Of a stretch of DNA of 38,385 nt, positions 19,410-38,152 are shown piece by piece. Positions within the stretch are counted from its first letter, which is position 1. Each line of letters begins with the position of its first letter. A program made the translations under genes and the position numbers. Under the pieces are notes generated by a model, which was given only the letters and a program-made list of their open reading frames with translations, was not told the origin of the DNA and did not search any database. Source of the DNA: Nitrosomonas sp. Nm33 (lineage in GTDB: Bacteria; Pseudomonadota; Gammaproteobacteria; Burkholderiales; Nitrosomonadaceae); NCBI RefSeq assembly GCF_900107265.1, contig NZ_FNPJ01000024.1:1-38385 (forward strand). Direction: 5' to 3'.

Positions 19410-19762
19410 ATGTATATAGAAAAATAAAGATTAATGTTACCGCGCTGATTAATCACAATAACTTGAAGCCTTGGTAATTTTTATGGCGCTCGGTTAGCAG
19501 CAGAAGGGCAATATATTCAATGAATGTTCAATAAGTAACTACTGGGAAGTTGCCTATTGGCAACATTTGGTGTCGAAATTATTTACACCATTATGTATAT
19601 AGGACGATAAGGGTTAATGTAACTGATTAATTAATCACAATAACTTGAAGCCTTGGTAATTTTTATGGCACTCAATTAGCAGCAGAAGGGGCAATATGTT
19701 CAATGAATTACTGTTGAAAAGTTGCTTATCAACGACATTTAGTGTCGGAATTATTTACGCTG
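19410..19762 (+). repeat. Two imperfect direct repeats of about 180 bp
   Basis: Unit 1 (19410-19592) and unit 2 (19593-about 19762) both begin ATGTATATAG. Both contain ATTAATCACAATAACTTGAA followed by GCCTTGGTAATTTTTATGG, then TTAGCAGCAGAAGGG, and end near GTGTCGAAATTATTTAC or GTGTCGGAATTATTTAC. The offset is 183 bases. A partial third start (GAATATATAGATA) follows unit 2. They lie upstream of the YezD-like gene. Confidence 0.8.
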
Positions 19763-20469: not shown

Positions 20470-21693
20470 ATGGGGATCAATATGCAACTAATAATAATAC
20501 TAATAAATGTTTTTCGCAGTTTGGTGGCTTTTATTATCAATGATATTTTTGCAAGTCCTTCCGTAAGGCTGGTTCGCCGAAGATTGAACAAAGTGCAGAG
20601 GCAGTGGAGCGTTACGGATGTTTTTTTTCTCTGCTTGATAGCAGCAATCCTGAATGGCACCCAGGCAGCACGTGCAAGTGGCGGATTCGATATTTCGACT
20701 GGAGCGGGACCGAGCCCGCTTTTTGGTGCAACACCATTTTCGCAAAAAATGCTGTTGCTTGAGGAGATGAATTCACTGCCAATGAACAAGTGTTCGGGCT
20801 GCACTTCAACCTTACCACAACCGAGTGATACCGGGAGTTCACCGGGTAGTGCGGCGCTCGATGTGTTTCTGAAGGGGCCGATTTATCCCTTTCCCACGGA
20901 GCAAGCAAACATAGTGCTACCGAATCCGTGGCAGGATTTGATTGAGACCCATACCGGGCCGCTCAGTTTTACTTCAATTGAAGGGCGCCCGGCCGGGGAA
21001 TTTTACGCGCATCAACGCTGGAATGAGTTCCAACCGGAGAGATACATTCAAACAGCGCAGGCCGGCGCACGCAAAAATACGGGACTTCGTAACAAGGGGC
21101 AGAGACATGAGTGGAGCAAAGGCGAATTCGCGCCAGGTGGTTTGTACCATAACACCACGGGTTATGCTGGCTTTGAAGGGAGCACTGCGGGTATCGAGGT
21201 ACGTTTTTATCCCAAAATGCCTGTGCAGCATCCCAACTCGGTGTGGACATTCGACGGGACATTTCCACCGAAGCTAATCATGGTGCGCTATGGGGAACCC
21301 ATCTTATTCCGCCATTACAACGCACTGCCGATCGATGAGAGCGCGAACAACTGTTTCGGCAGACATACCATTACGACGCACGAGCATAATGGCCACAATC
21401 CAGCTGAGAGCGATGGCTTCGCTAATGCCTACTTCTACCTAGGGCAATTCTATGACTATCGCTGGCCTATGATCCTTGCTGGGCACGATACCATCAATGC
21501 GGACAAATCAGATCCCAAAGCGGGTACTCCCGATGGGAACGGTGGCATCATGCGCATTCGCGGAGACTATCGCGAAACCATGAGCACGCATTGGTTCCAT
21601 GACCATATGCACGATTTCACTGAAGCAGATAGAGTCGGTTTGGAAGAGGGAAACAACGGGAATAACAGTTTGAAGGGAGGAAAAAAGAAATGA
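20470..21693 (+). pseudogene. Multicopper oxidase copy 1, internally deleted (domain 1 only)
   Basis: The frame is open for 407 residues and matches the other copies up to the second copper motif: CxxC in NKCSGCTSTLPQ, then TTHEHNGHNPAESDG, then STHWFHDHMHDF. Directly after HDF the sequence jumps to the C-terminal tail of the family (ADRVGLEEGNNGNNSLKGGKKK). The deletion removes domains 2 and 3, including the HPIHVH and HCHNTTH motifs. The type 1 copper site and half of the trinuclear ligands are thus missing, and oxidase activity is not expected. The frame is kept, and the stop overlaps the next gene's ATG (ATGA). It may now serve mainly as a leader for translation of that gene. A domain-1 product could also still be exported. 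Confidence 0.75.
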
Positions 21694-22697
21694 TAAAAGA
21701 TTGTTTCTCAAGACTAAGCAGATCAAGCCTTTCAGTCAAGCGCCTACTCTTTGGAATTGCACTGACTCTGGGAAGCAGCTTTACGCTGGGCGCTCCCCAG
21801 GGTTCGCCGTGGGGAGCAGATTATTTTCCTAATATTAATCTTGTCAATCAAGATGGGAAAAATGTCCATTTCTACAATGACCTCATCAAGGATAAGGTAG
21901 TTGTAATCAATTTCATTTTTACTAACTGCAAACTTTCCTGTTCGCTGGAAACAGCGCGGTTGCGGCACTTGCAAACGCTTCTTGGTGATCGTGTGGGGCG
22001 TGATGTGTTTATCTATTCCATTACGATTGATCCGGCAAATGACACTCCCGCAGTGCTCAAGCAGTATGCAGAGAAGTTTGGTGTTGGCCCCGGTTGGCAA
22101 TTTTTTACTGGCAAAGAAGCAGATATTACGCTCTTGCGCCGGAAGCTGGGGTTACTCAGTCCGCAAGATCCTGCAGATCAATTGGAGAATCATAATTTAA
22201 GCGTGCTGATTGGTAACGAGGCCACAGGACGCTGGACGAAACGCTCTCTAGGCGACAATCCTCAAGTGTTGGTCAATCTGATCGGCTATCAGATGCAGAA
22301 TAAGCGGATACCGCGTCAAGAGCAAAAAAGCTATGCCGCTGCGCGTGAGATCCGAGGATATTCGCCGCGGGGGGAATATCTTTTTAACACGCGCTGTAGT
22401 TCATGTCACACCATAGGCGCGGGCCATGGACTTGGTCCTGATCTGTTGCAAGTAACGTCACAGCGAGATCGCGACTGGTTGTTCCGCTGGATCAAGGAGC
22501 CGGATGTGGTCTTGGCTGAAAAAGATCCCATCGCGCTGGCGCTTTATCAGAAATTCAAGGAATTACCCATGCCGAATCTGCAGCTAAGTGACGGCGAGGT
22601 AGCAGCACTCATCGACTATCTGGAGAAGCAAAGCAGATTCATTACCAAGAGTAACGAATCGAAATGGCTTCTTATCAGCGGTGAGAAGAGAAAGTAG
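21690..22697 (+). CDS. SCO-type copper chaperone fused to cytochrome c, copy 1
   Basis: A 335-residue exported protein. After a signal segment (residues 17-34) comes a SCO1/SenC thioredoxin-fold domain with the copper-binding pair C80-KLS-C84 and His168 (ENHNLSVLIG). A C-terminal mono-haem cytochrome c follows, with CSSCH at 236-240 and the probable axial Met294 in ELPMPNLQLSD. SCO domains insert copper into cupredoxin-type centres. The fusion could metallate and exchange electrons with the neighbouring multicopper oxidases, which is an inference from context. Its ATG overlaps the stop of oxidase copy 1. It is highly similar to copy 2 at 25336. Confidence 0.88.
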   Translation: MIKDCFSRLSRSSLSVKRLLFGIALTLGSSFTLGAPQGSPWGADYFPNINLVNQDGKNVHFYNDLIKDKVVVINFIFTNCKLSCSLETARLRHLQTLLGDRVGRDVFIYSITIDPANDTPAVLKQYAEKFGVGPGWQFFTGKEADITLLRRKLGLLSPQDPADQLENHNLSVLIGNEATGRWTKRSLGDNPQVLVNLIGYQMQNKRIPRQEQKSYAAAREIRGYSPRGEYLFNTRCSSCHTIGAGHGLGPDLLQVTSQRDRDWLFRWIKEPDVVLAEKDPIALALYQKFKELPMPNLQLSDGEVAALIDYLEKQSRFITKSNESKWLLISGEKRK

Positions 22698-22710
22698 CAC
22701 CAATCTGTGC

Positions 22711-22734
22711 GGATGGCATGCAGTCTTGCCATCC
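22711..22734 (+). terminator. Hairpin after SCO-cytochrome copy 1
   Basis: GGATGGCA and TGCCATCC form a perfect 8-bp stem with an 8-base loop, 13 bases past the stop codon. There is no U-tract, so it could be a terminator, a pause or an mRNA-stabilising hairpin. A longer version follows SCO copy 2, and a remnant follows the decayed SCO copy at 32513. Confidence 0.5.
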
Positions 22735-22775
22735 GAATTCAGATGATCTGTTTCAGGAAGCAGTAGCAACATAAG

Positions 22776-22813
22776 TTAAGGCATTAAAGGCATTAAAGGC
22801 ATTAAAGGCATTT
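22776..22813 (+). repeat. 9-bp tandem repeat
   Basis: GCATTAAAG is repeated three times, with a partial fourth copy, from 22781, preceded by a partial unit TTAAG. It lies between the SCO-cytochrome gene and oxidase copy 2. It is absent from the equivalent position before copies 3 and 5. It is probably slippage-made. Confidence 0.8.
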
Positions 22814-22825
22814 AGTATTGATCCG

Positions 22826-22847
22826 GCCAGCTGGGATCTTAGCTGGC
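22826..22847 (+). promoter_or_regulatory. Conserved hairpin in the leader of oxidase copy 2
   Basis: GCCAGCT and AGCTGGC form a perfect 7-bp stem with an 8-base loop, about 60 bases before the start codon. Related sequences occupy the same position before copy 3 (26456-26481, weaker) and copy 5 (32611-32635, CCAGCC with GGCTGG). The role is unknown; it could be a protein site, mRNA structure or relic terminator. Confidence 0.5.
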
Positions 22848-22906
22848 TAGAGCAATGAAGCTGTAATTTTAAGTAGAAGTCATCACAACAACAAAAGGAG
22901 GTTACT

Positions 22907-25288
22907 ATGCAATCAATAAATTTGTCTGGTAGCTTGGAAACTTCTGCTATCAAATATCATTCAGCCACAAAGCCACAGTACCGACGATCAAGCAGGATGC
23001 AGAAACAAATGAAGGGCCTGGGGTTTTTTTTCCTCTGTCTAACTGCAGCAGTCCTGTATGGCACCTCATTAGCACACGCATCTGGCGGGTTCAATATTCC
23101 GACCGGAGCACCACCGAGCCCGCTCTTTGGTGCAAAGCCATTTTCGCAAAAAATGCTGCTGTTTGAGGAGATGAATTCATTGCCACTGAACAAGTGTTCG
23201 GATTGCGCCTCAACCTTGCCGCAGCCCAACGACACCCACAGCTCCCCGGATAGTATGGCGCTCGATACATTTTTGAAGGAACCGATTCATCCCTTTCCAA
23301 CGGAGCAAGCAAACATAGTGATGTCGAATCCGTGGCAGAGTGTGATTGAAACCCATACCGGGCCACTTAAATTTTCGGCAATCGAAGGGCGTCCCTCCGG
23401 GGAATATTACGCCCATCAACGCTGGGATGAGTTCCAACCGCAGGCATATGTTCAAACAGCGCAGGCCGGTGCACGCACAAACACGGGATTTCGTGACAAG
23501 GGGCAGAGACATGGCTGGAGCAATGGCGAATTCGCGCCAGGTGGTTTGTACCATAACACCACGGGTCGTGCTGGCTTTAAAGGGACGACAGCTGGCATCG
23601 AGCCACGTCTTCATCCCAAAATGCCTGTGCAGCAGCCTAATTCGCTGTGGACATTTGATGGGACATTCCCACCCAAGTTGGTTGTAGCACGTTATGGAGT
23701 TCCCTTCGTATTTCGCCATTACAACGCACTGCCGATCGATGAGAGCGCGAACAACGGCTTTGGCAGGCATACCATCTCAACGCACGAGCATAATGGCCAC
23801 AATCCAGCTGAGAGTGATGGCTATGCACATTCCTACTTCTACCCAGGGCAATTCTATGACTATCGCTGGCCTATGATCCTTGCTGGGCACGACACCATCA
23901 ATGCGGACAAATCGGATCCCAAAGCGGGTACTCCCGATGGGAACGGTGGCATCATGCGCATTCGCGGAGACTATCGTGAAACCATGAGTACACATTGGTT
24001 TCACGACCACATGCTCGATTTCACATCGCAGAATGTCTATAAAGGCAATGCTGCCATGATGAATTATTACAGTGCGCTCGACCGTGGCAACGAAGGGATG
24101 GATGATGGTGTCAACCTGCGTCTCCCGAGTGGCACCGCTCTGGATTGGGGGAATCGTGACTATGACGTCAATCTGGCGCTTGCCGACAAAGCGTGGGATC
24201 AGAACGGGCAGCTTTTCTTTAACATTTTTCAAACCGATGGTTTTCTCGGAGATCAGATGACGGTGAACTGGGCGTACAAACCTTATTTTGAAGTGCGTGC
24301 GCGCCGCTACCGTTTCCGCATCCTGAATGCCAGCGTGGCACGCTGGTTCCAGGTCGCGCTGGTGAATGCAGCCGGACAACCGGTGCCGTTCCATATGGTC
24401 GCCAATGATGGAAATTTGATGGAACATGCTGTCCGCTTCTCGGATGCTGTACTTCCATCACAAGGCATCGCGGAACGCTATGACATCGTTGTGGACTTCG
24501 GTCAATTCAAGCCCGGTGACAAACTCTATTTTGTCAACGTGCTGGAACATAAGGACGGCAAAGGTCCCAATAAGCAGATCCCGCTTGACCAGGTGGTATC
24601 AGGAAAATATAAGGGTGATCCGGTAGTTGGCAAGTTTCTCGAATTCCGGGTGAAAGCCTACGATGGCGTAGATCTGAGCATGAATCCTGCCGATTTTGAA
24701 CCAGGGAAGAAACAAATGATCCCGCTGCCGGGATTCTCTGCCGAAGAACTCGCAAATGCAAAACATCGCACGTTTGAATTCGGACGCGCGAATGGCTCAG
24801 ATGACAAACCATGGACCATTAAGACCGATGGTGGGCAAGGATATAACATGGATCCGCGCCGGTTGTCTGCTGCGCCTGACAAGGGCAGCGTTGAAATCTG
24901 GCACCTTAAGAACGGTGGAAATGGTTGGAGTCATCCAATACATGTGCATTTCGAGGAGGGTCAGATTCTCAAACGCGGTGGACAGACTCCTCCTGAATGG
25001 GAGAAATGGGCGCGTAAAGACGTGTATCGCATTGGTGATAGGATGCCAGACACGCTTGACAGTGTTGAATTTGCGATCCGTGTAAGAGAATTTGTGGGTA
25101 CATATATGGAGCATTGCCACAATACCACGCACGAAGACACGGCCATGCTGTTACGTTGGGATTCCCAGAATCCTGGCCAGGTCATTGCTATCCCCACGCC
25201 GATGCCGGACTGGGATGGTGTTGACTATGTAGAAACCAACGAAACAGATGTACCTTCTTTCAAGACCGGTGTTACTAACGTGAAATAG
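22907..25288 (+). CDS. Multicopper oxidase, copy 2
   Basis: A 793-residue exported laccase-type oxidase. All four copper motifs are present: HEH at 293-295 (STHEHNGH), HDH at 366-368 (HWFHDHM), HPIHVH at 676-681 and HCHNTTHEDTAM at 736-747. Type 1 copper should use His676, Cys737, His742 and Met747, and the other eight His the trinuclear site. It should thus oxidise a substrate in four one-electron steps and reduce oxygen to water. A cleavable signal precedes SLAHA. A 230-residue N-terminal region carries CSDC (97-100), conserved in all copies. AAAGGAGG lies just before the ATG. It is followed after 47 bases by SCO-cytochrome copy 2. The substrate is unknown; metal oxidation is one option. 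Confidence 0.92.
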   Translation: MQSINLSGSLETSAIKYHSATKPQYRRSSRMQKQMKGLGFFFLCLTAAVLYGTSLAHASGGFNIPTGAPPSPLFGAKPFSQKMLLFEEMNSLPLNKCSDCASTLPQPNDTHSSPDSMALDTFLKEPIHPFPTEQANIVMSNPWQSVIETHTGPLKFSAIEGRPSGEYYAHQRWDEFQPQAYVQTAQAGARTNTGFRDKGQRHGWSNGEFAPGGLYHNTTGRAGFKGTTAGIEPRLHPKMPVQQPNSLWTFDGTFPPKLVVARYGVPFVFRHYNALPIDESANNGFGRHTISTHEHNGHNPAESDGYAHSYFYPGQFYDYRWPMILAGHDTINADKSDPKAGTPDGNGGIMRIRGDYRETMSTHWFHDHMLDFTSQNVYKGNAAMMNYYSALDRGNEGMDDGVNLRLPSGTALDWGNRDYDVNLALADKAWDQNGQLFFNIFQTDGFLGDQMTVNWAYKPYFEVRARRYRFRILNASVARWFQVALVNAAGQPVPFHMVANDGNLMEHAVRFSDAVLPSQGIAERYDIVVDFGQFKPGDKLYFVNVLEHKDGKGPNKQIPLDQVVSGKYKGDPVVGKFLEFRVKAYDGVDLSMNPADFEPGKKQMIPLPGFSAEELANAKHRTFEFGRANGSDDKPWTIKTDGGQGYNMDPRRLSAAPDKGSVEIWHLKNGGNGWSHPIHVHFEEGQILKRGGQTPPEWEKWARKDVYRIGDRMPDTLDSVEFAIRVREFVGTYMEHCHNTTHEDTAMLLRWDSQNPGQVIAIPTPMPDWDGVDYVETNETDVPSFKTGVTNVK

Positions 25289-25335
25289 CAAGAAGCAGGG
25301 TTGATTGAAGAAGTAAGTAAGTAAAGGAGAAAGAA

Positions 25336-26310
25336 ATGATGAGAAAAAGTTTGGTAGGACTATTGAGGTTAAACCTTTTAGCCATTCTCTTCTTCATCGG
25401 AATAGCCCTGGCACTCGAGAGCGCCCCCACGCGGGGCGCTCCACCGGGTTCGCCGTGGGGGGCGGATTATTTTCCCAATATTAATCTTGTCAATCAGGAT
25501 GGAAAAAATGTCCGCTTCTATGATGACCTCATCAAGGGTAAGGTAGTTGTGATCAATTTCATCTTCACCAACTGCAAACTTTCCTGTTCGCTGGAAACAG
25601 CGCGGTTGCGGCACTTGCAAGCGCTCCTTGGTGATCGTGTGGGGAGTGATGTGTTTATCTACTCCATTACGATTGATCCGGCACATGACACTCCCGCAGT
25701 GCTCAAGGAGTATGCAGAGAAGTTTGGTGTTGCCCCTGGCTGGCAATTTCTTACTGGCAAAGAAGCAGATATTACGCTCTTGCGCCGGAAGCTGGGGTTA
25801 CTGGGTTCGCAAGATCCTGCAGATCAATTAGATAATCATAATCTGAGCGTGCTAGTTGGTAACGAGGCTACGGGGCGCTGGACAAAACGCTCTCTAGGCG
25901 ATAATTCTCAAGTGTTGGTCAGTCTGATCGGCTATCAGATGCAGAATAAGCGGATGCAGAGTCAAGAGCAGAAAAGCTATGCCGATGCGCGTGAGATCCA
26001 AGGGTTTTCGCGGGGGAATTATCTTTTTAATACGCGCTGTAGTTCATGTCACACCATAGGCGCGGGCGACGGACTTGGTCCTGATCTGTTGCAAGTAACA
26101 TCACAACGAGATCGCGACTGGTTATTCCGCTGGATCAAGGAGCCGGATGTAGTCTTGGCTGAAAAAGATCCCATCGCGCTGGCGCTTTATCAGAAGTTCA
26201 AGGAATTATCCATGCCGAATCTGCAACTAAGTGATATCGATGTAGCAGCACTCATCGATTATCTGGAGAAGCAAAGTAGATTAATTACCAGTAGTAACGA
26301 ATCGAAATAG
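25336..26310 (+). CDS. SCO-type copper chaperone fused to cytochrome c, copy 2
   Basis: A 324-residue paralogue of the gene at 21690. The signal segment is different (MMRKSLVGLLRLNLLAILFF); the SCO domain has C80-KLS-C84 and His168, and the cytochrome c has CSSCH at 235-239 with axial Met293 (ELSMPNLQLSD). It is almost identical to copy 1 from residue 36 onward, so the two N-termini differ in origin. A clear AAAGGAG site precedes the ATG. It forms a two-gene unit with oxidase copy 2 and is followed by a long hairpin. Confidence 0.9.
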   Translation: MMRKSLVGLLRLNLLAILFFIGIALALESAPTRGAPPGSPWGADYFPNINLVNQDGKNVRFYDDLIKGKVVVINFIFTNCKLSCSLETARLRHLQALLGDRVGSDVFIYSITIDPAHDTPAVLKEYAEKFGVAPGWQFLTGKEADITLLRRKLGLLGSQDPADQLDNHNLSVLVGNEATGRWTKRSLGDNSQVLVSLIGYQMQNKRMQSQEQKSYADAREIQGFSRGNYLFNTRCSSCHTIGAGDGLGPDLLQVTSQRDRDWLFRWIKEPDVVLAEKDPIALALYQKFKELSMPNLQLSDIDVAALIDYLEKQSRLITSSNESK

Positions 26311-26346
26311 CTTCTTATTAGCGGCAAGAAGAGGAAGTAGCAGTAA

Positions 26347-26384
26347 CCTGTCCGGATGGCATGCGGTCTTGCAATCCGGACAGG
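26347..26384 (+). terminator. Long hairpin after SCO-cytochrome copy 2
   Basis: CCTGTCCGGATGGCA pairs with TGCAATCCGGACAGG with one mismatch across an 8-base loop, 36 bases past the stop. No U-tract follows. This is the strongest structure in the array and probably ends or protects the upstream transcript. Confidence 0.6.
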
Positions 26385-26528
26385 TGATCCATTCCAGGAA
26401 GCAAATGTGCTTCTTCCTGTCAATAAGTAAGTATAAGGAGGTACTCAGTATAGATCCGGCCTGCAGAATTAGCTGGCTGGGCAATAACTATAAAGGAGTT
26501 ATTCAAACGGAAATAAAAGGAGGTTCCT

Positions 26529-29015
26529 ATGAAATCAATAAATTTATCTGGCAGCTTGGCAGTTCCTGCTACCAACTATCATTCAGCTACAAGGCCACAG
26601 CACCGACGATTAAACAGGGTGCAGAAACAAATGAAGGGCCTGGGAGTTCTTTCCCTCAGTCTAACTGCAGCACTCCTGTGCGGTGCCTCGTTAGCACAAA
26701 CAGGTGGTGGAACAGGTGGAACAGGTGGTGGCTTTGACATTCCGACTGGAGCGCCACCGAGTCCACTTTTTGGCGCCACCCCTTTTTCGCAGAAAATGCT
26801 GATGCTTGAGGAAATGGGCTCACAACCCCTGGTTGAATGCCGCGATTGCACCTCGACTTTTCCAGAGCCAAATGATATCAGGAGTTCTCCAAATGGAGCA
26901 GCGCTTGATGCGTATCTGAGGGAACCGATCTATCCCTTCCCGACAGAGCAAGCGAATATAGCACTGCCGAATCCTTGGCAGGAACGGATTGAAACTCATA
27001 CCGGCAAACTGGATCAAACGGCGTACGAAGGGCGCCCACCTGGCGAATTTTACGCCCATCAGCGCTGGCTTGAGTTCTTTCCGCAGGTATGGATACAAGC
27101 AGCCCAGTCTGGCGCACGCAGAAACGGGGGGCTGCGTAATGATCAGCAGCGACATCGTTATGCCGTAGGTGAATTTGCGCCCGGCGGTCTCTATCATAAC
27201 ACTACGGGGACTACTGGTTTTGAAGGAACCACCGCTGGGATCGAGGTGCGTTTCCATCCCGAATTACCTGTCCAGAATCCGAATTCGATATGGACGTTTG
27301 ACGGTACCTTCCCACCGAAAATGATTACGGCGCGCTATGGTGAGCCCATCCTGTTTCGCCATTACAATGCGCTGCCGATCGATGAGGGCGCGAACAACGG
27401 CTTTGGCAGGCATACCATCACGACGCATGAACATAATGGCCACCATCCAGCCGAAAGTGATGGTTTCACGGCGGCTTTCTTCTTTCCGGGCCAGTTTTAT
27501 GACTATCACTGGCCTATGATCCTTGCTGGGCATGACACTATTAATACGGACAAATCGGATCCGAGGGCGGGTGGTCCTGATGGAAAAGGCGGCATCATGC
27601 GCATCCGTGGGGATTTCCGCGAAACCATGAGCACCCATTGGTTTCATGACCACATGTTCAATTTTACGTCACAGAATGTCTATAAGGGTAACGCAGGGAT
27701 GATGAATTTTTACAGTGCACTCGATCGTGGCAACGAAGGGCTGGATGACGGTGTCAACCTGCGTTTGCCCAGTGGCACCGTCCTCGATTGGGGGAATCGT
27801 GACTATGACATCAATCTGATGGTTGCGGATAAAGCCTGGGATCAGAGTGGTCAGCTTTTCTACAACATTTTCCAAACTGATGGCTTCCTCGGAGATCAGA
27901 TGACGGTGAACGGGTTGTTCAAACCTTTCTTTGAGGTGCGGGCACGCCGCTACCGTTTCCGTATTCTGAATGCCAGTGTAGCGCGCTGGTTTAAAATTGC
28001 GTTGGTGACTGCAGCCGGCCAACGGGTGCCATTCCATATGATCGCCAATGACGGTAATGTGATGGAGCATGCAGTCCGCTTTCCGAATGCAACTCTTCCA
28101 TCACAAGGCATCGCGGAACGCTATGACATCGTTGTGGACTTCAGTCAATTCAAGCCCGGTGACAAACTCTATTTTGTCAATGTGCTGGAACATAAGGACG
28201 GCAAAGGTCCCAATAAACAGATCCCGCTTGACCAGGTGCTATCAGGAAAATATAAGGGTGATCCGGCAGTGGGCAAGTTTCTTGAGTTTCGGGTACAAGC
28301 CTACAACGGTAAAGATTTGAGCATGAATCCTGCTGATTTTGAGCCAGGCAAGAAACAAATGATTCCGCTGCCGACGTTCACCGCGGAAGAGCTCAATAAT
28401 GCGACGCATCGCACGTTTGAATTCGGTCGTGCGAATGGTGAAGATTTCAATCCATGGACCATCAAGACCGATGGCGGGCAAGGGTTTAATATGGATCCGC
28501 GCCAACTGTCTGCCGCACCTGACAAGGGCAGCGTTGAAATCTGGCACCTTGTGAACGGTGGCGAGGGTTGGTCCCACCCAATACATGTGCACTTCGAGGA
28601 GGGGCAGATTCTCAAACGGGGTGGACTGCCTCCGCCCGAATGGGAGAAATGGGCGCGTAAAGATGTATATCGTATCGGTGATTTGCCAGATACGCTTCAC
28701 AGTATTGATTTTGCGATCCGTGTAAGAGAATTTGTGGGTACATATATGGAGCATTGCCACAATACCACGCACGAAGACACGGCCATGCTGTTGCGTTTTG
28801 ACTCCCAGAATCCGGGCCAGCTCATTGCCATCCCCACGCCGCTACCGGACTGGGATGGCGTTACCTATCTAGAGACCAATACCACGGATATACCAACCTT
28901 CAAAATCGGTGATCTCGACGCGAAAGCAAATAGAGTCGGTTTGGAAGCAGTGGGCAATGGAAATAACGGAAATAACAACAATAACAACAATAACAACAAT
29001 AACGGCAATAACTGA
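26529..29015 (+). CDS. Multicopper oxidase, copy 3
   Basis: An 828-residue full-length copy with TTHEHNGHHPAESDG, STHWFHDHMFNF, SHPIHVHFEEGQ and MEHCHNTTHEDTAMLL all intact. CRDC replaces CSDC in the N-terminal region. After the signal peptide there is a short TGGGTGGTGGG insert. The C-terminus is a low-complexity tail of Asn and Gly (NGNNGNN, then a run of Asn) encoded by AAT/AAC repeats. AAAAGGAGG precedes the ATG. Unlike copies 1, 2 and 4, it is followed by a small Asn/Gly-rich frame and then only fragments of a SCO gene. The substrate is unknown. Confidence 0.92.
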   Translation: MKSINLSGSLAVPATNYHSATRPQHRRLNRVQKQMKGLGVLSLSLTAALLCGASLAQTGGGTGGTGGGFDIPTGAPPSPLFGATPFSQKMLMLEEMGSQPLVECRDCTSTFPEPNDIRSSPNGAALDAYLREPIYPFPTEQANIALPNPWQERIETHTGKLDQTAYEGRPPGEFYAHQRWLEFFPQVWIQAAQSGARRNGGLRNDQQRHRYAVGEFAPGGLYHNTTGTTGFEGTTAGIEVRFHPELPVQNPNSIWTFDGTFPPKMITARYGEPILFRHYNALPIDEGANNGFGRHTITTHEHNGHHPAESDGFTAAFFFPGQFYDYHWPMILAGHDTINTDKSDPRAGGPDGKGGIMRIRGDFRETMSTHWFHDHMFNFTSQNVYKGNAGMMNFYSALDRGNEGLDDGVNLRLPSGTVLDWGNRDYDINLMVADKAWDQSGQLFYNIFQTDGFLGDQMTVNGLFKPFFEVRARRYRFRILNASVARWFKIALVTAAGQRVPFHMIANDGNVMEHAVRFPNATLPSQGIAERYDIVVDFSQFKPGDKLYFVNVLEHKDGKGPNKQIPLDQVLSGKYKGDPAVGKFLEFRVQAYNGKDLSMNPADFEPGKKQMIPLPTFTAEELNNATHRTFEFGRANGEDFNPWTIKTDGGQGFNMDPRQLSAAPDKGSVEIWHLVNGGEGWSHPIHVHFEEGQILKRGGLPPPEWEKWARKDVYRIGDLPDTLHSIDFAIRVREFVGTYMEHCHNTTHEDTAMLLRFDSQNPGQLIAIPTPLPDWDGVTYLETNTTDIPTFKIGDLDAKANRVGLEAVGNGNNGNNNNNNNNNNNGNN
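28962..29011 (+). repeat. AAT/AAC trinucleotide repeat encoding the poly-Asn tail
   Basis: A run built from AAC and AAT, often as AACAAT hexamers, encodes the Asn-rich end of oxidase copy 3. Related but shorter and more varied runs end copies 4 and 5. The repeat length is a multiple of three, so slippage would alter tail length without changing the frame. Confidence 0.75.
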
Positions 29016-29051
29016 AATAATGGAAATAACGAATTGAAGGAAGGAGGCAAT

Positions 29052-29183
29052 ATGAATAATGGTAAAGACCGTAGTAAAGGCAGCAGCAACAACGATGTGT
29101 CAATATCCAACAGCGGAAATTTTCACGCCAGCCAGAGCTCTAACTCTGTAGGCGAGCATGACGATGGGGGATACAGGCCATAA
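29052..29183 (+). CDS. Small Asn/Gly/Ser-rich protein after oxidase copy 3
   Basis: A 43-residue frame starting MNNGKDRSKGSSNNDVSISN, preceded by a good GGAGG site. It is highly charged and hydrophilic, with His in NFHASQ and EHDDGG and no signal peptide. The same sequence forms the C-terminal extension of oxidase copy 4, and a shorter version follows copy 5. It is either a real short gene next to the oxidases or the detached tail of a longer ancestral oxidase. Function unknown. Confidence 0.4.
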   Translation: MNNGKDRSKGSSNNDVSISNSGNFHASQSSNSVGEHDDGGYRP

Positions 29184-29559
29184 AGGAAAAGTTCGCAGTA
29201 AATGAGGCAATGATTGCTGAGGAGAAACCTGGCTGGACTATGGAGGTCAAAGCTTCCAGCTGGATTCTTTCTCTTTCCAATCATGCTGATGTTGCTGATG
29301 TCTACTTTACAACTACCTTATCAAAGATAAGGTAGTTGTAATTAATTTCATTTCTCGAAAGCAGATAGAGTCGGTTTGGAAGGGGGAAACAACGGAAATA
29401 ACAGTTTGAAAGGAGGAGAAAAGAAATAATAAAAGATCGTTTTGCATGAATGGAGTTATCTATGTAGAAACCAACATCACGGATGTACCAACATTCAAAA
29501 CTGGCGATCTTGATACGGGTAATGATTAGGAAGAAATACGCTGAAAGAAGGAGAGAAAA
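29184..29559 (+). pseudogene. Nested fragments of SCO-cytochrome and oxidase genes
   Basis: Three pieces can be read. First, 29207-about 29350 matches the start of a SCO gene (GGCTGGACTATGGAGG, then YNYLIKDKVVVINFI) with an internal deletion. Second, about 29355-29450 matches the oxidase tail ADRVGLEGGNNGNNSLKGG plus the beginning of a SCO gene (ATAAAAGATCGTTTT). Third, about 29450-29529 is another oxidase tail (VIYVETNITDVPTFKTGDLD). None has an intact start and stop. Together they record successive duplications and deletions. Confidence 0.7.
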
Positions 29560-32211
29560 ATGATAGAAGATCGTTTTACAAGACTGAGTAGATCAGGCCT
29601 TTCAGTCAAACTCTTACATATAGAAAATTTATCCAAACCCAAGCAGGTATTCCGACGATTACGCAGAGTCCAGAGTCAAATGAGCATTAGGAAAGCTTTG
29701 CTGCTCTATTTGTCGGCAACAACCTTCTACGGCACCTCATTTCCTACCGCAAATAGCGCGAAGTTCGATATTCCGACTGGAACATCACCGACCCCGCTTT
29801 TTGGCGCCACCCCTTTTTCGCAAAAAATGCTGCTGCTTGAGGAAATGGGCTCACAGCCCTTGGTTGAATGCCGCACTTGCACCTCGACTTTACCGCAGCC
29901 AAACAATATCAGGAGTTCTCCAAAAGGAGCAGCACTCGATGCATTTCTGAAGGAGCCGATCCATCCCTTCCCGATGGAGCAAGCAAATATAGTGCTGCCG
30001 AATCCGTGGCAGGATTTGATTGAAACCCATACCGGGCCGCTCAATTTTACAGCAATTGAAGGGCGCCCACCTGGGGAATTTTATGCCCATCAGCGCTGGT
30101 TTGAGTTCTTTCCGCTGGTGTGGGTACAAACAGCCCAGTCTGGCGCGCGCAGAAACGAGGGATTGCGTAATGATCAGCAGCGACATCGCTATGCTGTAGG
30201 TGAATTTGCCCCAGGCGGTCTGTATCATAACACTACAGGTCGTGCCGGTTTTGAAGGGAGCACTAAGGGTATCAAGGTACGTTTTCATCCCAGAATGCCT
30301 GTGCAGCATCCTAAGTCAGTGTGGACGTTTGACGGTACCTTTCCACCTAAACTAATCATGGCGCGCTATGGTGAGCCCATCCTGTTTCGCCATTACAACG
30401 CGCTGCCGATCGATGAGACGACGAACAACGGTTTTGGCAGACATACCATCTCGACGCACGAGCATAATGGCCACAATCCGGCTGAGAGCGATGGCTTCGC
30501 GCATGCCTACTTCTACCCAGGGCAATTCTTTGACTATCGCTGGCCCATGATCCTCGCTGGGACCGACACCATTAATACGGACAAATCGGATCCCAGAGCA
30601 GGTACTCCCGATGGGAACGGCGGCATCATGCGCATTCGCGGGGACTATCGCGAAACCATGAGCACCCATTGGTTCCATGACCACATGCAGGATTTCACAT
30701 CGCAGAATGTCTATAAAGGCAACGCTGCCATGATGAATTATTACAGTGCGCTCGACCGTGGCAATGAAGGGCTGGAGGACGGTGTCAACCTGCGTCTCCC
30801 GAGTGGCACAGCCCTGGATTGGGGGAATCGTGACTATGACGTTAACGTGATAGTTGCTGACAAAGCGTGGGATCAGAACGGTCAGCTTTTCTTCAGCATT
30901 TTCCAAACCGATGGCTTCCTCGGAGATCGGATGACGGTGAACTGGCTGTACAAACCTTATTTTGACGTACGCTCGCGCCGCTACCGTTTCCGTATTCTGA
31001 ATGCCAGCGTGGCGCGCTGGTTCAAGATCGCGCTGGTAACCTCATCCGGTCAACGGGTGCCGTTCCATATGATCGCCAATGACGGTAATGTGATGGAACA
31101 TGCAGTCCGCTTTCCGAATGCTATTCTTCCATCACAAGGCATCGCGGAACGCTATGACATCGTTGTGGACTTCAGTCAATTCAAACCCGGTGACAAACTC
31201 TATTTTGTCAACGTGCTGGAACATAAGGACGGCAAAGGTCCCAATAAACAGATCCCGCTTGACCAGGTGCTATCAGGAAAATATAAGGGTGATCCGGCAG
31301 TTGGCAAGTTTCTCGAGTTCCGTGTGCAAGCCTACAACGGTACAGACTTGAGCATGAACCCTGCGGATTTTGAGCCAGGCAAGAAAAAAATGATCCCACT
31401 ACCGGGATTCACCGCCGAAGAGCTCAACAATGCAACGCAGCGCACGTTTGAATTCGGGCGTGCGAATGGCACAGATGACAAACCATGGACCATCAAGACC
31501 GATGGGGGGCAAGGGTATAACATGGATCCGCGTCGTGTGTCTGCCTCGCCTGACAAGGGCGGCGTTGAAATCTGGCGCCTTGTAAACGGTGGAAACGGTT
31601 GGAGCCACCCAATACATGTGCACTTCGAGGAGGGTCAGATTCTCAAACGGGGTGGATTATCTCCACCTGAATGGGAGAAATGGGCGCGTAAAGACGTATA
31701 TCGTATTGGTGATATGCCAGACACACTTGGTAGTGTTGAATTTGCGGTCCGTGTAAGAGAATTTGTGGGCACATATATGGAGCACTGCCACAATACCACG
31801 CACGAAGACTCGGCCATGCTGTTGCGTTGGGATTCCCAGAATCCAGGTCAGGTCATTGCTATCCCTACGCCGATGCCGGACTGGGATGGGGTTGATTATA
31901 TAGAAACCAATACCACGGATGTGCCAACCTTTAAGGTCGGTGATCTCGACGCGAAAGCAAATAGAGTCGGTTTGAAAGCAGTGGGCAATGAAAATAACGG
32001 AAACAGCGAAAATAACGAATTGGAGGAGGAAGACAACATGAATAATGGTAAAGGCCGTAGTAAAGGCAGCAATAACGATGTGCGAATATCCAACGGCGGA
32101 AATCTTCACGCCAGCCAGAACTCTAACTCTGTAGGCAAGCATGACGATGGGGGTAAAGGTCATAATGGTAGAGGTCGCAATAGGGGCGGTCATAAAGGAG
32201 GCAATGATTGA
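29560..32211 (+). CDS. Multicopper oxidase, copy 4, with exchanged N-terminus and extended C-terminus
   Basis: An 883-residue copy with all copper motifs: STHEHNGHNPAESDG, STHWFHDHMQDF, SHPIHVHFEEGQ and MEHCHNTTHEDSAMLL. Its first residues MIEDRFTRLSRSGLSVK match the start of SCO-cytochrome copy 1 (MIKDCFSRLSRSSLSVK), not the MQSINLSG start of other oxidases, so the 5' end comes from a SCO gene. The tail has no stop where copies 3 and 5 have one. It runs through ELEEEDN into the small MNNGKGRSKGSNND frame and a His/Arg/Gly-rich end (GHNGRGRNRGGHKGG). GAAGGAG precedes the ATG. The stop overlaps the ATG of a decayed SCO gene (TGATG). Confidence 0.9.
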   Translation: MIEDRFTRLSRSGLSVKLLHIENLSKPKQVFRRLRRVQSQMSIRKALLLYLSATTFYGTSFPTANSAKFDIPTGTSPTPLFGATPFSQKMLLLEEMGSQPLVECRTCTSTLPQPNNIRSSPKGAALDAFLKEPIHPFPMEQANIVLPNPWQDLIETHTGPLNFTAIEGRPPGEFYAHQRWFEFFPLVWVQTAQSGARRNEGLRNDQQRHRYAVGEFAPGGLYHNTTGRAGFEGSTKGIKVRFHPRMPVQHPKSVWTFDGTFPPKLIMARYGEPILFRHYNALPIDETTNNGFGRHTISTHEHNGHNPAESDGFAHAYFYPGQFFDYRWPMILAGTDTINTDKSDPRAGTPDGNGGIMRIRGDYRETMSTHWFHDHMQDFTSQNVYKGNAAMMNYYSALDRGNEGLEDGVNLRLPSGTALDWGNRDYDVNVIVADKAWDQNGQLFFSIFQTDGFLGDRMTVNWLYKPYFDVRSRRYRFRILNASVARWFKIALVTSSGQRVPFHMIANDGNVMEHAVRFPNAILPSQGIAERYDIVVDFSQFKPGDKLYFVNVLEHKDGKGPNKQIPLDQVLSGKYKGDPAVGKFLEFRVQAYNGTDLSMNPADFEPGKKKMIPLPGFTAEELNNATQRTFEFGRANGTDDKPWTIKTDGGQGYNMDPRRVSASPDKGGVEIWRLVNGGNGWSHPIHVHFEEGQILKRGGLSPPEWEKWARKDVYRIGDMPDTLGSVEFAVRVREFVGTYMEHCHNTTHEDSAMLLRWDSQNPGQVIAIPTPMPDWDGVDYIETNTTDVPTFKVGDLDAKANRVGLKAVGNENNGNSENNELEEEDNMNNGKGRSKGSNNDVRISNGGNLHASQNSNSVGKHDDGGKGHNGRGRNRGGHKGGND

Positions 32212-32512
32212 TGAGAAGAAGCTTGGCTGGACTATGGAGGTGAAGGTTTGCAGCCAGACTCTTCCTCTTTGCAATCATACTGACGTTGCTGATGTCAGAA
32301 AGGCAGCGGACTATTTTCCAAATATTCCTCGTGCAAATGAGGACGGAAAAGATGTCTGCTTCTACAACTACCTTATCAAAGATAAGATAGTTGTAATTAA
32401 TTTCATTTTTACTAACTGCGGCTTTCCTGTGCCCCGGAAGCAGCGCGGTTACGACACTTGCAAAAGCTCCTTGGTGATCGTGTGGGGCGCGATGTGTTTA
32501 TCTACTCCATTT
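32211..32512 (+). pseudogene. Decayed SCO-cytochrome gene after oxidase copy 4
   Basis: It starts ATGAGAAGAAGCTTGGCTGG, matching the start of SCO copy 2, but has an in-frame TGA at codon 11. Later, in another frame, it reads ADYFPNIPRANEDGKDVCFY and then LIKDKIVVINFIFTNCGFPV. The CxxxC copper motif is lost (CGFPV), a frameshift follows, and all of the His region and the cytochrome c domain are deleted. The sequence then joins directly to the downstream hairpin region (GGCATGCAGTCTTGCCATCC). Confidence 0.8.
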
Positions 32513-32610
32513 GGCATGCAGTCTTGCCATCCGAATTCGGATGATCTGTTCCAGGAAGCAACTGCGCTCCCTGTCAATGAGTAAATATAAGTGAGGTGAT
32601 CAGGATCGAT

Positions 32611-32635
32611 CCAGCCGACTGAATTAGCTGGCTGG
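32611..32635 (+). promoter_or_regulatory. Conserved hairpin in the leader of oxidase copy 5
   Basis: CCAGCC and GGCTGG form a 6-bp stem with AATTAGCTGG-type flanks shared with the leaders of copies 2 and 3. It lies upstream of the inserted mobile element, so it is now about 290 bases from the start codon instead of about 50-70. Confidence 0.45.
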
Positions 32636-32647
32636 CGCAATAAAGGA

Positions 32648-32907
32648 GTTATCCTAAATTCCTCAGTTGGAATTTAGAATGAAAATAGCTGTAATCTAGT
32701 ACTATCAACGGTTCACAGCCAAAAATGTTAACTGCTCCTCAGTTACAGTAAACAAGCTGAGAGCAAGGTGTGGCAACACTTTCAGCAGATTTTGATTATT
32801 TCACTAAAATCTCATCTGATTGGTAATGCCATGGATCTTTCAAAGAACCTTAATCAATAGGGTTCTTGAGCGATTTAGGAGTCTTCAACTGAGGAATCTA
32901 GGGTTAT
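32648..32907. mobile_element. 250-bp element with IS1380-like ends in the leader of oxidase copy 5
   Basis: The element spans 32653-32902. Its left end is CCTAAATTCCTCAGTTG, and its right end, read outward, is CCTAGATTCCTCAGTTG. A 5-bp duplication GTTAT flanks it (32648-32652 and 32903-32907). The leader of oxidase copy 3 shows the uninterrupted site AAAGGAGTTATTCAAAC. ISEcp1, of the IS1380 family, also ends in CCTAGATTC and CCTAAATTCC. There is no transposase. The interior differs from the 235-bp element at 10966, so they share ends but not cargo. An in-frame ATG at 32820 inside the element could extend the oxidase but is not preferred. Confidence 0.9.
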
Positions 32908-32927
32908 TCAAACAAAAGGAGGTTCCT

Positions 32928-35393
32928 ATGCAATCAATAAATTTATCTGGCGGCTTGGCAGCTCCTACTATTGACTATCATTCAGCTACAACGCCACCGC
33001 ACCGACGATTAAACAGGATGCAGAGACAAATGAAGGGCCTGGGAGTTTTTTCCCTTTGTCTAACTGCAGCACTCCTGTGTGGTACCTCGTTAGCGCAAAC
33101 AAGTGGCGGCTTTGACATTCCGACCGGAGCGCCACCGAGCCCGCTCTTTGGCGCCACCCCTTTTTCGCAAAAAATGGTGCTGCTTGAGGAAATAGGCACA
33201 CAACCCTTGGTTGAGTGCCGCACTTGCACCTCGACTTTGCCGCAACCAAACAATATCAGGAGTTCTCCAAATGGAGCAGCACTCGATACGTTTCTGAGGG
33301 AGCCGATCCATCCCTTCCCGACACAGGAAGCGAATATAGTGCTGCCGAATCCTTGGCAGGATCTGATTGAAACCCATACCGGCAAACTAGATCAAACGGC
33401 AATCGAAGGGCGCCCACCTGGCGAATTTTACGCCCATCAGCGCTGGCTTGAGTTCTTTCCGCAGGTATGGATACAAACAGCCCAGTCTGGCGCGCGAAGA
33501 AACGAAGGGCTGCGTGATGATCAGCAGCGACATCGCTATGCTGTAGGTGAATTTGCACCAGGTGGTCTCTACCATAACACTACAGGTCGTGCCGGTTTTG
33601 AAGGGACCACTGTGGGTATTCAGGTACGTTTCCATCCCAATATGCCGATCCAGCAGCCGAATTCGGTATGGACATTTGACGGGACATCCCCGCCGAAACT
33701 AATCACGGTGCGCTATGGGGAGCCCATCCTGTTTCGCCATTACAATGCGCTGCCAATCGATGAGGGTGCGAACAACGGTTTTGGCAGGCATACCATCACA
33801 ACGCATGAGCATAATGGCCATCATCCAGCAGAAAGTGACGGTTTCGCAGGAGCTTTCTTCTTCCCGGGGCAGTTTTATGACTATCGCTGGCCTATGATCC
33901 TCGCTGGGACCGACACCATTAATACGAACAAATCGGATCCCAGAGCGGGTGCTCCTGATGGGAAGGGCGGCATCATGCGCATCCGTGGAGATTTCCGCGA
34001 AACCATGAGCACGCATTGGTTCCATGACCACATGCTCGATTTTACGTCACAGAATGTCTACAAGGGCAATGCTGCCATGTCAAATTTCTACAGCGCACTC
34101 GATCGCGGCAACGAAGGGCTGGATGACGGTGTCAACCTGCGTTTTCCGAGTGGCACCGCCCTCGATTGGGGGAATCGTGACTATGACATTAACTTGATGG
34201 TCGCGGATAAAGCCTGGGATCAGAGTGGTCAGCTTTTCTTCAACATTTTCCAGACTAATGGCTTCCTCGGAAATCAAATGTTGGTGAATGGGTTGTTCAA
34301 ACCTTTCTTTGAGGTGCGAGCGCGCCGCTACCGTTTCCGTATTCTGAATGCCAGTGTGGCGCGCTGGTTCAAAATTGCGCTGGTGACCGCAGCCGGCCAA
34401 CGGGTACCATTCCATATGATCGCTAATGACGGTAATGTGATGCAACATGCTGTCCGCTTTCCGGATGCTATTCTTCCGTCACAGGGTATCGCAGAACGCT
34501 ATGACATCGTTGTGGACTTCAGTCAATTCAAACCCGGTGACAAACTCCATTTTGTCAACGTGCTGGAACATCAAGATGGTAGGCGACCTAATCAAGAGAT
34601 CCCGCTGGAAGATATCCTGTCAGGGGAATATCAGGGTGATCCAGCAGTGGGCAAGTTTCTTGAGTTCCGGGTACAAGCCTACGATGGCACAGACTTGAGC
34701 ATGAATCCTGCTGATTTTGAGCCAGGCAAGAAACAAATGATCCCGCTGCCGACATTCACCGCGGAAGAACTCAATAATGCAACGCATCGCACGTTTGTAT
34801 TCGGACGTTCGGATGGCGCAGATGATAAACCATGGACCATCAATACCGATGGGGGGCAAGGGTTTACTATGGATCCGCGCCGGCTATCTGCTGCGCCTAA
34901 CAAGGGTGGCGTTGAAATCTGGCACCTTGTGAACGGTGGCGGCGGCTGGGCTCACCCGATACATCCTCACTTCGAGGAAGGGCAGATCCTGAAAAGAGGC
35001 GGATTGCCTCCCCCTGAGTGGGAAAGATTTGCGCGCAAAGATATGTATCGTATCGGTGATTTGCCAGATAGCCTTCAAAGCGTCGATATAGTAATGCGCA
35101 CGCGGGAATTCACGGGTTCATATGTGGAGCATTGCCACAATACCACGCACGAAGACACCTCCATGCTGTTGCGTTTTGACTCCCAGAATCCGGGCCAGCT
35201 CATTGCCATCCCCACGCCGATACCGGACTGGGATGGAGTGGTCTATGTGGAAACCAATGCCACGGATGTGCCAACCTTCAAAATCGGTGATCTCGACGCG
35301 AAAGCAAATAGAGTCGGTTTGGAAGCAGTGGGTAATGAAAATAACGAAAATACCGACAATAACGGCAATAGCGGTAATAGTGGAAGTAACTGA
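32928..35393 (+). CDS. Multicopper oxidase, copy 5
   Basis: An 821-residue copy from the ATG at 32928, chosen for its AAAAGGAGG site and the family N-terminus MQSINLSGGL. Copper motifs are TTHEHNGHHPAESDG, STHWFHDHMLDF, AHPIHPHFEEGQ and VEHCHNTTHEDTSMLL. Pro replaces Val in HPIHVH; the ligands themselves are kept. The segment from about 34560 to 35130 is clearly more diverged (EHQDGRRPNQEIPLEDILSG) than the stretches before and after, which are near-identical to copy 3. The tail is Asn/Gly/Ser-rich. An IS1380-like element separates it from its original leader. Confidence 0.92.
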   Translation: MQSINLSGGLAAPTIDYHSATTPPHRRLNRMQRQMKGLGVFSLCLTAALLCGTSLAQTSGGFDIPTGAPPSPLFGATPFSQKMVLLEEIGTQPLVECRTCTSTLPQPNNIRSSPNGAALDTFLREPIHPFPTQEANIVLPNPWQDLIETHTGKLDQTAIEGRPPGEFYAHQRWLEFFPQVWIQTAQSGARRNEGLRDDQQRHRYAVGEFAPGGLYHNTTGRAGFEGTTVGIQVRFHPNMPIQQPNSVWTFDGTSPPKLITVRYGEPILFRHYNALPIDEGANNGFGRHTITTHEHNGHHPAESDGFAGAFFFPGQFYDYRWPMILAGTDTINTNKSDPRAGAPDGKGGIMRIRGDFRETMSTHWFHDHMLDFTSQNVYKGNAAMSNFYSALDRGNEGLDDGVNLRFPSGTALDWGNRDYDINLMVADKAWDQSGQLFFNIFQTNGFLGNQMLVNGLFKPFFEVRARRYRFRILNASVARWFKIALVTAAGQRVPFHMIANDGNVMQHAVRFPDAILPSQGIAERYDIVVDFSQFKPGDKLHFVNVLEHQDGRRPNQEIPLEDILSGEYQGDPAVGKFLEFRVQAYDGTDLSMNPADFEPGKKQMIPLPTFTAEELNNATHRTFVFGRSDGADDKPWTINTDGGQGFTMDPRRLSAAPNKGGVEIWHLVNGGGGWAHPIHPHFEEGQILKRGGLPPPEWERFARKDMYRIGDLPDSLQSVDIVMRTREFTGSYVEHCHNTTHEDTSMLLRFDSQNPGQLIAIPTPIPDWDGVVYVETNATDVPTFKIGDLDAKANRVGLEAVGNENNENTDNNGNSGNSGSN

Positions 35394-35429
35394 AATAATG
35401 GAAATAACAGGTTGGGGGAGGGAGGCAAC

Positions 35430-35510
35430 GTGAATAATGGTAAAGGCCTTAATAAAGGCGGCAATAACGATGTGTCAATATCCAATACCAGTAATCTTTA
35501 TGTCAGCTAG
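35430..35510 (+). CDS. Short Asn/Gly-rich frame after oxidase copy 5
   Basis: A 26-codon frame with a GTG start and GGAGG upstream, reading VNNGKGLNKGGNNDVSISNT and ending LYVS. It is the shortened homologue of the 43-residue frame at 29052 and of the fused tail of oxidase copy 4. Probably a decaying relic. Confidence 0.3.
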   Translation: MNNGKGLNKGGNNDVSISNTSNLYVS

Positions 35511-35576
35511 AGCTCTGTAGGCGAGCATGGCAATGGGGATACAGGCCTAAAGGAAAAGGTCGTAATAAATGAGGCA

Positions 35577-35755
35577 ATGATTGTTAAGGAGAAGCCTGCT
35601 GGACTATAGAGATCAAGGTTTCCAGCCGGATTCTTCCTCTTTCCAATTACACTGATGCTGCTGATGTTGCTGACGTCAAAAAGGCAGCGGACTATTTTCC
35701 AGATATCCCTCTTGTAAATGAGGGTGGAAAAGATGTCCGCTTCTTTTATGATAAT
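35577..35755 (+). pseudogene. SCO-cytochrome gene remnant after oxidase copy 5
   Basis: It begins like the decayed SCO copy at 32211 (GAGAAGCCTGCTGGACTATA) and later encodes KKAADYFPDIPLVNEGGKDV, then RFFYDNQLNS, the first part of a SCO domain. It stops before the copper motif. No cytochrome domain remains. It marks the right edge of the array. Confidence 0.75.
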
Positions 35756-35789
35756 CAGCTCAATTCCAATAAACCCTGTCACACATAGG

Positions 35790-36332
35790 CACGTGTACGA
35801 TAATCAAATCCGAAATTTAGCTAGCCCGGATATTTCACCAAACCGGCCTTTACTGCAATGCGAAAGTTGATGAGCAAGCGTTTCCGGATAGATTTATGCA
35901 AATCCAGTTTGTACCGTTAGTCTATGCAGGCATTGGCGGGAAATTTCGGCATTTTTCTACCACTACTTCGCGCCAATAATCGCAGATATTGGTTTGACGC
36001 GGGATACTTAAACCTGCTCGCAAATCTCTTTGCCATCTTATTTATACCGTCTGATTCACCTTCGTATCATGTTTGATTTGGAAATAAAATTAAATCGTAG
36101 TAAAAACTTGGAAAACAGCGCTGTAACACATATAATTGTCAATTGATTCAGACTCTTTTAGTTTTTATGATGGTAACCATCAGCAACGACCAGTAGATCG
36201 TGCGGCCAGCTCCGCTGCCTGTACTCAAGTGCAAAGCAATTCCGCAACACTCCACACTTGCGCGATTGAGGTATGCTGAATTTCCTGGAGTCCAAAGTTT
36301 CATAAAATATAGACATGAAATGAAGGACAAGA
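35790..36332. other. Unassigned region right of the oxidase array
   Basis: About 540 bases. On the minus strand a short frame ends KSIRKRLLINFRIAVKAG, then LVKYPG and a stop near 35826. This could be the C-terminus of a lost transposase, but the family was not recognised. The right part may contain the left end of the decayed IS3 element that follows. Confidence 0.35.
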
Positions 36333-38000: not shown

Positions 38001-38152
38001 AGAAATCAGCTTTATCATCAATTGATCAAATATTTTTTTGACTGAAGTTATGCAATATTCCAAAAGTTAAGTGTATTTTTGTCTTTCAGTTAATTCCATA
38101 TCTAAATCAAACTTGACTTTGTCGGCTTCACCTTGCCGTATTATTTATACTG

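Follow-up and report, generated by a model that had tools for sequence, protein, structure and literature searches.

Among enzymes of tested function, the nearest relative of the oxidases described here is McoA of Pseudomonas. In P. putida GB-1 and in strains MS-1 and DSV-1, mcoA is followed by a SCO1/SenC gene; in MS-1 and DSV-1, both manganese-oxidising Pseudomonas, the order is mnxS1 - mcoA - SCO1/SenC - mnxS2 - mnxR, and further along the GB-1 mcoA operon come genes for a diguanylate cyclase/phosphodiesterase, for a protein that binds phosphonate and for an integrase (PMC11409713). GB-1 cells in which mnxG and mcoA were both knocked out precipitated no Mn oxide (PMC11930936). The mnxG and mofA/ompB clusters are alike in that Mn- or metal-linked oxidase genes stand beside genes for SCO1/SenC and for cytochrome c (PMC11409713, Table 4; PMC5566968), but in these clusters the cytochrome and Sco are separate genes and the oxidases belong to other groups, which we compared by description only; multiple mofA copies per genome are said to be common in one Leptothrix group (PMC13386937). 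The window analysed here is the entire contig C92 (NZ_FNPJ01000024.1), 38,385 bases long, from the draft genome of Nitrosomonas sp. Nm33 (3.23 Mb in 171 contigs), and at 20470-35751 it carries five homologous multicopper oxidase (MCO) genes, all on the + strand, together with intact and decayed genes for a Sco protein fused to cytochrome c. No description of a tandem mcoA array was found in the literature searched, in which subscription literature was covered only in part. We conclude that the novelty lies in an array of five copies in a genome resembling that of an ammonia oxidiser, not in the kind of system.

The oxidase genes are in unequal states of preservation. MCO2 (22907-25288), MCO3 (26529-29015, with an Asn-rich C-terminal tail), MCO4 (29560-32211, with a long Asn/Gly-rich tail) and MCO5 (32928-35393, with a possible alternative TTG start at 32820) are full length and have all four copper motifs (HEHNGH, HWFHDH, HPIH(V/P)H and HCH-x3-H-x4-M), and in these four the C-terminal Cu-oxidase_2 domain is the only one that Pfam recognises. 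MCO1 (20470-21693), which has no Pfam match, is truncated: the first two copper motifs are kept, the C-terminal half is deleted, and an internal deletion fuses the stretch after HWFHDHM to an Asn-rich tail. A search of the genome with MCO3 (E <= 0.001) returned the five places in the array and no others, the remaining copies being 85, 82, 79 and 72% identical to the query. From the N-terminal hydrophobic segments seen by eye in the array proteins, we infer that they are exported; twin-arginine translocation (Tat) as a common trait was tried and rejected, a loose RR motif occurring in 13 of 79 relatives.

An intact SCO1/SenC gene lies directly 3' of both MCO1 and MCO2, and remnants lie 3' of MCO3-5. 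SCO1 (SCO-cytochrome c 1, 21690-22697, +), whose ATG overlaps the MCO1 stop, has the CxxxC motif and distal His of Sco, a CSSCH heme site and an axial Met, and SCO2 (SCO-cytochrome c 2, 25336-26310, +) is identified by Pfam, by its predicted structure and by fold matches. Pfam E-values for SCO1 and SCO2, respectively, are 9.3e-18 and 2.2e-19 for SCO1-SenC and 2.9e-08 and 4.7e-08 for Cytochrom_C (PF00034). The predicted SCO2 model (pLDDT 87) has Sco proteins, with their thioredoxin-like fold, as its top Foldseek matches, and its cytochrome domain is 54% identical to PDB 2l4d at a root-mean-square deviation of 1.4 Å. That entry is the cytochrome domain of P. putida pp3183 and gives as its molecule name SCO1/SenC family protein/cytochrome c; here, by contrast, two intact copies and three remnants stand inside an oxidase array.

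The remnants, all on the + strand, have decayed to different extents. After MCO3, a frame-broken remnant at about 29197-29353, the first part of which is a weak match, is linked to a fragment of an oxidase tail (29356-29382); it is followed by a stray oxidase C-terminal fragment (29450-29513) and by a detached SCO N-terminus (29560-29617) in which the MCO4 open reading frame (ORF) now begins. SCO and oxidase pieces are scrambled in the MCO3-MCO4 interval. A 16-pair inverted repeat occupies 29307-29341 within this first remnant. The remnant after MCO4 (32193-32511) is frame-shifted near CxxxC, with the remaining Sco part and the cytochrome c part deleted, and that after MCO5 lies at 35687-35751, with a weaker repeat match from 35565. 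None of the three remnants has a recognisable heme site. Beyond the two intact genes, cytochrome-domain sequence is seen only as a weak match at the start of MCO5 (32910-32978; 23 residues, 52%, E 0.023), which resembles the C-terminal end of the SCO1 cytochrome domain and may be due to chance or may be the trace of an upstream SCO gene that now encodes the N-terminus of the oxidase. The inventory given in an earlier sequence-only reading of this DNA, namely five oxidases (four with all copper motifs) with two intact and at least three decayed SCO genes, is thus confirmed by ORFs, motifs and Pfam.

In a quick tree of 77 of 98 rows, from which MCO1 and 20 Pseudomonas rows were omitted (two ORFs of less than 600 aa, from L042 and L101, having been omitted earlier), MCO2-5 form one clade with SH-aLRT support of 100, in which MCO2 branches first, then MCO4, then MCO3 with MCO5. 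Across their whole genes these four copies differ at a synonymous divergence (dS) of 0.38-0.79, with ratios of nonsynonymous to synonymous divergence (dN/dS) of 0.18-0.25; over the mature region, dN/dS is 0.13-0.19 in both halves and in all six pairs. Ratios this low indicate that MCO2-5 evolved under purifying selection, in keeping with the earlier proposal that four copies were kept by selection. Along the genes dS is patchy, which suggests exchange of sequence between the copies. We thus conclude that the array is a local tandem amplification under purifying selection and not a false duplication in the assembly. Compared with the other copies, MCO1 has a dN/dS of 0.12-0.23 over the shared half and 0.17-0.32 over its whole length, and given these low values its truncation may be recent.

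The partnership of oxidase and SCO gene is not peculiar to this genome. In a scan of genome contigs the best 79 of 412 candidate loci were retained, so the counts that follow describe the closest relatives only. These 79 loci carry 88 oxidase ORFs, 51 of which are immediately followed, with no more than 261 nt between, by a SCO-type gene on the same strand, and the encoded partners have CxxxC in all 51 cases and the heme motif CxxCH in 49. The paired loci (48 of 79) are spread across six named phyla, two of these loci having no phylum name. Outside Pseudomonas, 38 of 42 oxidases with at least 2 kb of contig left are paired. Of the 37 unpaired oxidases, 11 lie close to the end of a contig and the other 26 have 2 kb or more of contig left (22 in Pseudomonas and 4 elsewhere; one of the latter, L014, is scored unpaired by the counting rule even though its oxidase is followed by a SCO match). 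The check on conserved pairing proposed with the sequence-only reading therefore came out in its favour. We conclude that the oxidase/SCO-cytochrome pair is already known and widespread, and that it is the amplified five-copy array that is unusual. At least two oxidases occur in 8 of the 79 loci. One of these, L012 (a Planctomycetota metagenome-assembled genome from Lake Baikal), also has tandem oxidase/SCO-cytochrome pairs, but there are three, each with its SCO-cytochrome, and its copies form no clade exclusive of L017; a search of its own genome at 1e-20 gave three oxidases. Oxidases of the same group without a SCO neighbour were seen in Pseudomonas loci such as L044, L057 and L063, the last two with two oxidases each.

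Conservation of the partner proteins extends to their metal sites. An alignment of 35 partners (the two of the window and 33 of the 51 locus partners, excluding L047 and L056, in which the heme motif is missing and the frame is broken in the contig) shows that C80, C84 and H168 of the Sco site, which we take to be the copper ligands of Sco, are invariant in 35 of 35, as are C235, C238, H239 and M293 of the heme site. Pfam Cytochrom_C is matched in 31 of the 35 at 1e-4, and a third domain, PCuAC, is present in 6. The companion alignment of oxidases comprises 24 of the 88 from the loci. The oxidases of L013 and L016 (1272 and 1341 aa) have a C-terminal DUF7482 domain, and the partner in L013 is a triple fusion of Sco, cytochrome c and PCuAC; one same-group oxidase, L018:483-5204, has at its C-terminus a MauG-type di-haem cytochrome c peroxidase domain.

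Two Pseudomonas loci connect this group with mcoA, and a third resembles them in part. L069 has the order kinase - MCO - SCO-cytochrome - kinase - sigma-54 regulator, matching that of MS-1 and DSV-1; L074 has MCO - SCO-cytochrome - GGDEF/EAL - integrase, near the GB-1 order; and L078 has a kinase and a sigma-54 regulator at the corresponding places, with a partner that has no Pfam cytochrome match at 1e-5. L069 and L074 are here taken as mcoA orthologues by gene order only. MCO3 is 60% identical to the oxidase of L069 and 58% identical to that of L074 (54-55% by tblastn), and the Nitrosomonas and Pseudomonas systems have in common a homologous oxidase (58-60%) followed by its SCO gene, which in L069 has a Pfam cytochrome c domain. 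The array differs in its five tandem copies, in its Asn-rich tails, in belonging to a different clade and in having no mnxS or mnxR found in the window. A relation to the Mn oxidase McoA is likely on these comparisons, and the gene orders shared with Pseudomonas mcoA strengthen the case for Mn(II), which the sequence-only reading had named as one candidate substrate.

We put at about even the chance that a McoA-type, probably Mn(II)-oxidising module was amplified in place, with the SCO-cytochrome as its dedicated copper-maturation partner. The oxidase would be an exported MCO of the laccase superfamily that takes electrons from its substrate at the type 1 copper and reduces oxygen; given its descent and its gene partner, its likeliest substrate would be Mn(II) and the product an extracellular Mn oxide. 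Outside the cytoplasm, the Sco domain would hand copper on to the oxidase; the cytochrome c fused to Sco would most likely serve as redox partner, keeping the Sco site or its copper in a reduced, transferable state. Copper maturation is our first reading of the partner because the cytochrome is fused to Sco, because the Sco copper site is intact and because some of the aligned partners also contain PCuAC, a family of copper chaperones that reportedly works together with Sco when oxidases are assembled (PMC7558416). The genome's third Sco-family match adjoins COX1 and COX2 genes, so the SCO genes of the array need not serve cytochrome oxidase and would be free for the MCO. A founding single pair, either gained laterally or kept as an old copy of the genus, would then have been duplicated in tandem; the copies apparently exchanged sequence, three SCO copies decayed, since two chaperone copies could supply several oxidases in trans, and four oxidase copies would be held by purifying selection, plausibly for dosage. 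The loss of three SCO genes while four oxidases stayed intact fits a chaperone acting in trans on several clients. A genome keeping four McoA-type genes under purifying selection would make this a good strain in which to test Mn oxidation in an ammonia oxidiser, the conserved SCO-cytochrome(-PCuAC) partner would offer a specific and testable route of maturation for oxidases of this group, and the array raises the question, a speculative one, of whether the active enzyme needs its SCO-cytochrome partner.

Several observations weigh against an Mn-oxidising module matured in this way. The array forms its own clade and is not nested in the Pseudomonas clade (the deep branches of the quick tree are not resolved), and the oxidases closest to it in sequence (up to 64%) belong to genomes considered here by sequence only. 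L074 does not have the phosphonate-binding gene of the GB-1 order, and its mcoA label derives from gene order only. No two-component regulator, mnxS1, mnxS2 and mnxR included, was found in the 20 window ORFs scanned with Pfam, the rest of the genome lying outside the search, and a McoA-like sigma-54 promoter was rejected as a candidate, with 22 pattern matches in the window against 26 expected; both mnxS/mnxR and the sigma-54 promoter concern regulation in Pseudomonas and are not properties of the enzyme. The predicted structure of MCO3 is poor (mean pLDDT 51). That truncated MCO1 has no clearly higher dN/dS means that this ratio alone is no proof of present function. Finally, of the 35 oxidase ORFs in Pseudomonas that have room for a partner, 22 stand without an adjacent SCO gene. 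This last count, together with the two intact SCO-cytochromes for four intact oxidases, leads us to reject strict one-to-one oxidase/cytochrome modules; the proposal that each pair is a module is upheld as regards conserved pairing, not as regards strict pairing.

The SCO-cytochrome c could instead be an electron partner, with electrons from the substrate passing from the type 1 copper via the cytochrome into the respiratory chain, or with the cytochrome feeding the oxidase. Retention of all heme ligands in every aligned partner agrees with such a role, and the MauG-type di-haem domain fused to the L018 oxidase itself, which also counts against a purely maturational partner, allows direct contact between cytochrome and oxidase. 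MofC, the product of a cytochrome gene beside mofA, has been proposed for a role of this kind (PMC5566968). However, in the array and its aligned relatives the cytochrome is fused to Sco and not to the oxidase, and it is to this fusion that PCuAC is added in 6 of 35. An MCO reduces oxygen by itself and needs no cytochrome. In work on pp3183, Banci and colleagues (2011) reportedly argued for electron transfer in Sco proteins. We regard an electron partner as unlikely; exchange of electrons between cytochrome and oxidase, as put forward in the sequence-only reading, is possible and less supported than copper maturation.

A role in copper tolerance appears doubtful to a similar degree. Under such circumstances the genes would encode periplasmic cuprous oxidases like CueO or CopA, present in extra copies to raise dosage under copper stress; metal stress is commonly met by tandem amplification, a copper chaperone partner is present, and the profiles show similarity to MCOs of the laccase superfamily, including CueO. 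However, MCO2-5 score 90-115 bits against the NCBIfam CueO model, far under its cut-off of 525, and membership of the CueO family is rejected on this ground; no copper-efflux family appears among the 20 Pfam-scanned window ORFs, and the closest relatives whose role has been tested are found in gene orders of mcoA. Oxidation of Cu(I) is possible as a substrate activity.

Laccase activity on phenolic or other organic reductants, or on nitrogen intermediates, seems improbable. Among solved structures, bilirubin oxidase is the best match by sequence (1.1e-36), and many MCOs are substrate-promiscuous (PMC11995701), but the solved laccases are only distantly similar, and array-type genes, being present in few genomes of the family (see below), make a core nitrogen role unlikely; for a nitrogen intermediate as substrate, another earlier suggestion, no support was found. 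Very improbable, too, is a bolder form of the Mn reading, in which the module would have been amplified so strongly that Mn oxidation ranks as a major trait outside the cell, and the cytochrome fused to Sco would link the MCO to the respiratory chain, passing on electrons from Mn(II) alongside those from ammonia. That the array is an assembly artefact, as a draft of 171 contigs and a contig beginning inside a transposase-like ORF might allow, is scarcely credible, since false duplication would yield near-identical copies and not the synonymous divergence seen among MCO2-5, and since the left flank of the array matches six congener loci.

The flanks place the array within the genus. The left flank matches those six loci at 75-85% DNA identity, and in all six the match stops at 19417-19427; on the right, a CHRD gene is matched in three congeners (73% in G011, 65-66% in G077 and G012), and G011 alone also matches a 115-nt stretch closer to the array (36038-36152), with its left and right flanks on different contigs. 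The array thus sits between flanks that are found again in congeners, and the left-flank matches show that the contig belongs to the genus. No oxidase or SCO match at 1e-5 was found in the nine congener flank loci, and no exact empty site was found among them. The genome matches the ammonia/methane monooxygenase family PF02461, and from this match and a remark in the sequence-only reading the host is probably an ammonia oxidiser.

The array-type genes are rare in the family. An MCO search of 125 family genomes gave nine matches at 1e-80, the genome's own included, and array-type genes in four (its own, G088, G104 and G105), by which count a core family trait is rejected. G104 and G105, of another genus, have one pair each, with an oxidase of 46-47% identity (tblastn); the congener G088 has a single oxidase/SCO-cytochrome pair (L101, on C102) with one in-frame stop in each frame and an oxidase of 49% identity overall. 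G088 also holds two shorter oxidases: at L102 (G088:C175), two pairs of oxidase and plain SCO stand about 5.9 kb apart, the oxidases being identical and of a different, shorter group of about 650 aa. The five other family genomes matched at 1e-80 have only the shorter oxidase (open frames of 646-675 aa, 42-43% identity). Putative MoxA, MnxG and McoA have been reported in published nitrifier genomes, including Nitrosomonadaceae, in a paper according to which no member of those families had been shown to oxidise Mn (PMC11995701); our count of 4 in 125 sits uneasily with it, presumably because its criteria were looser. A class-wide search gave matches at 1e-150 in 5 of 369 genomes, including this one, with at most two candidates scored per genome, so that copy numbers in it are not comparable.

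Elsewhere in the window, the Pfam scan of 20 ORFs (omitting those at 3-404, 7186-7785, 14067-14939 and 15221-16144) found at 4971-7013 a protein with a RoxA-like domain, which also exceeds the cut-off set by NCBIfam for its model of di-heme cytochrome c peroxidase. The ORF at 3-404, transposase-like by eye, is cut by the contig start. The CHRD-domain gene lies at 37271-37843, and a second copy, 71% identical, is on contig C48 of the same genome. Rfam gave no match at the gathering score in the window. A 60-base element at 38093-38152, likewise with no Rfam match, is present at no fewer than 41 places in its own genome when 40 of 139 candidates are scored (itself, 39 strong matches at 89-97% identity and one weak one), with further copies in congener loci, and is probably a dispersed short repeat or a miniature mobile element.

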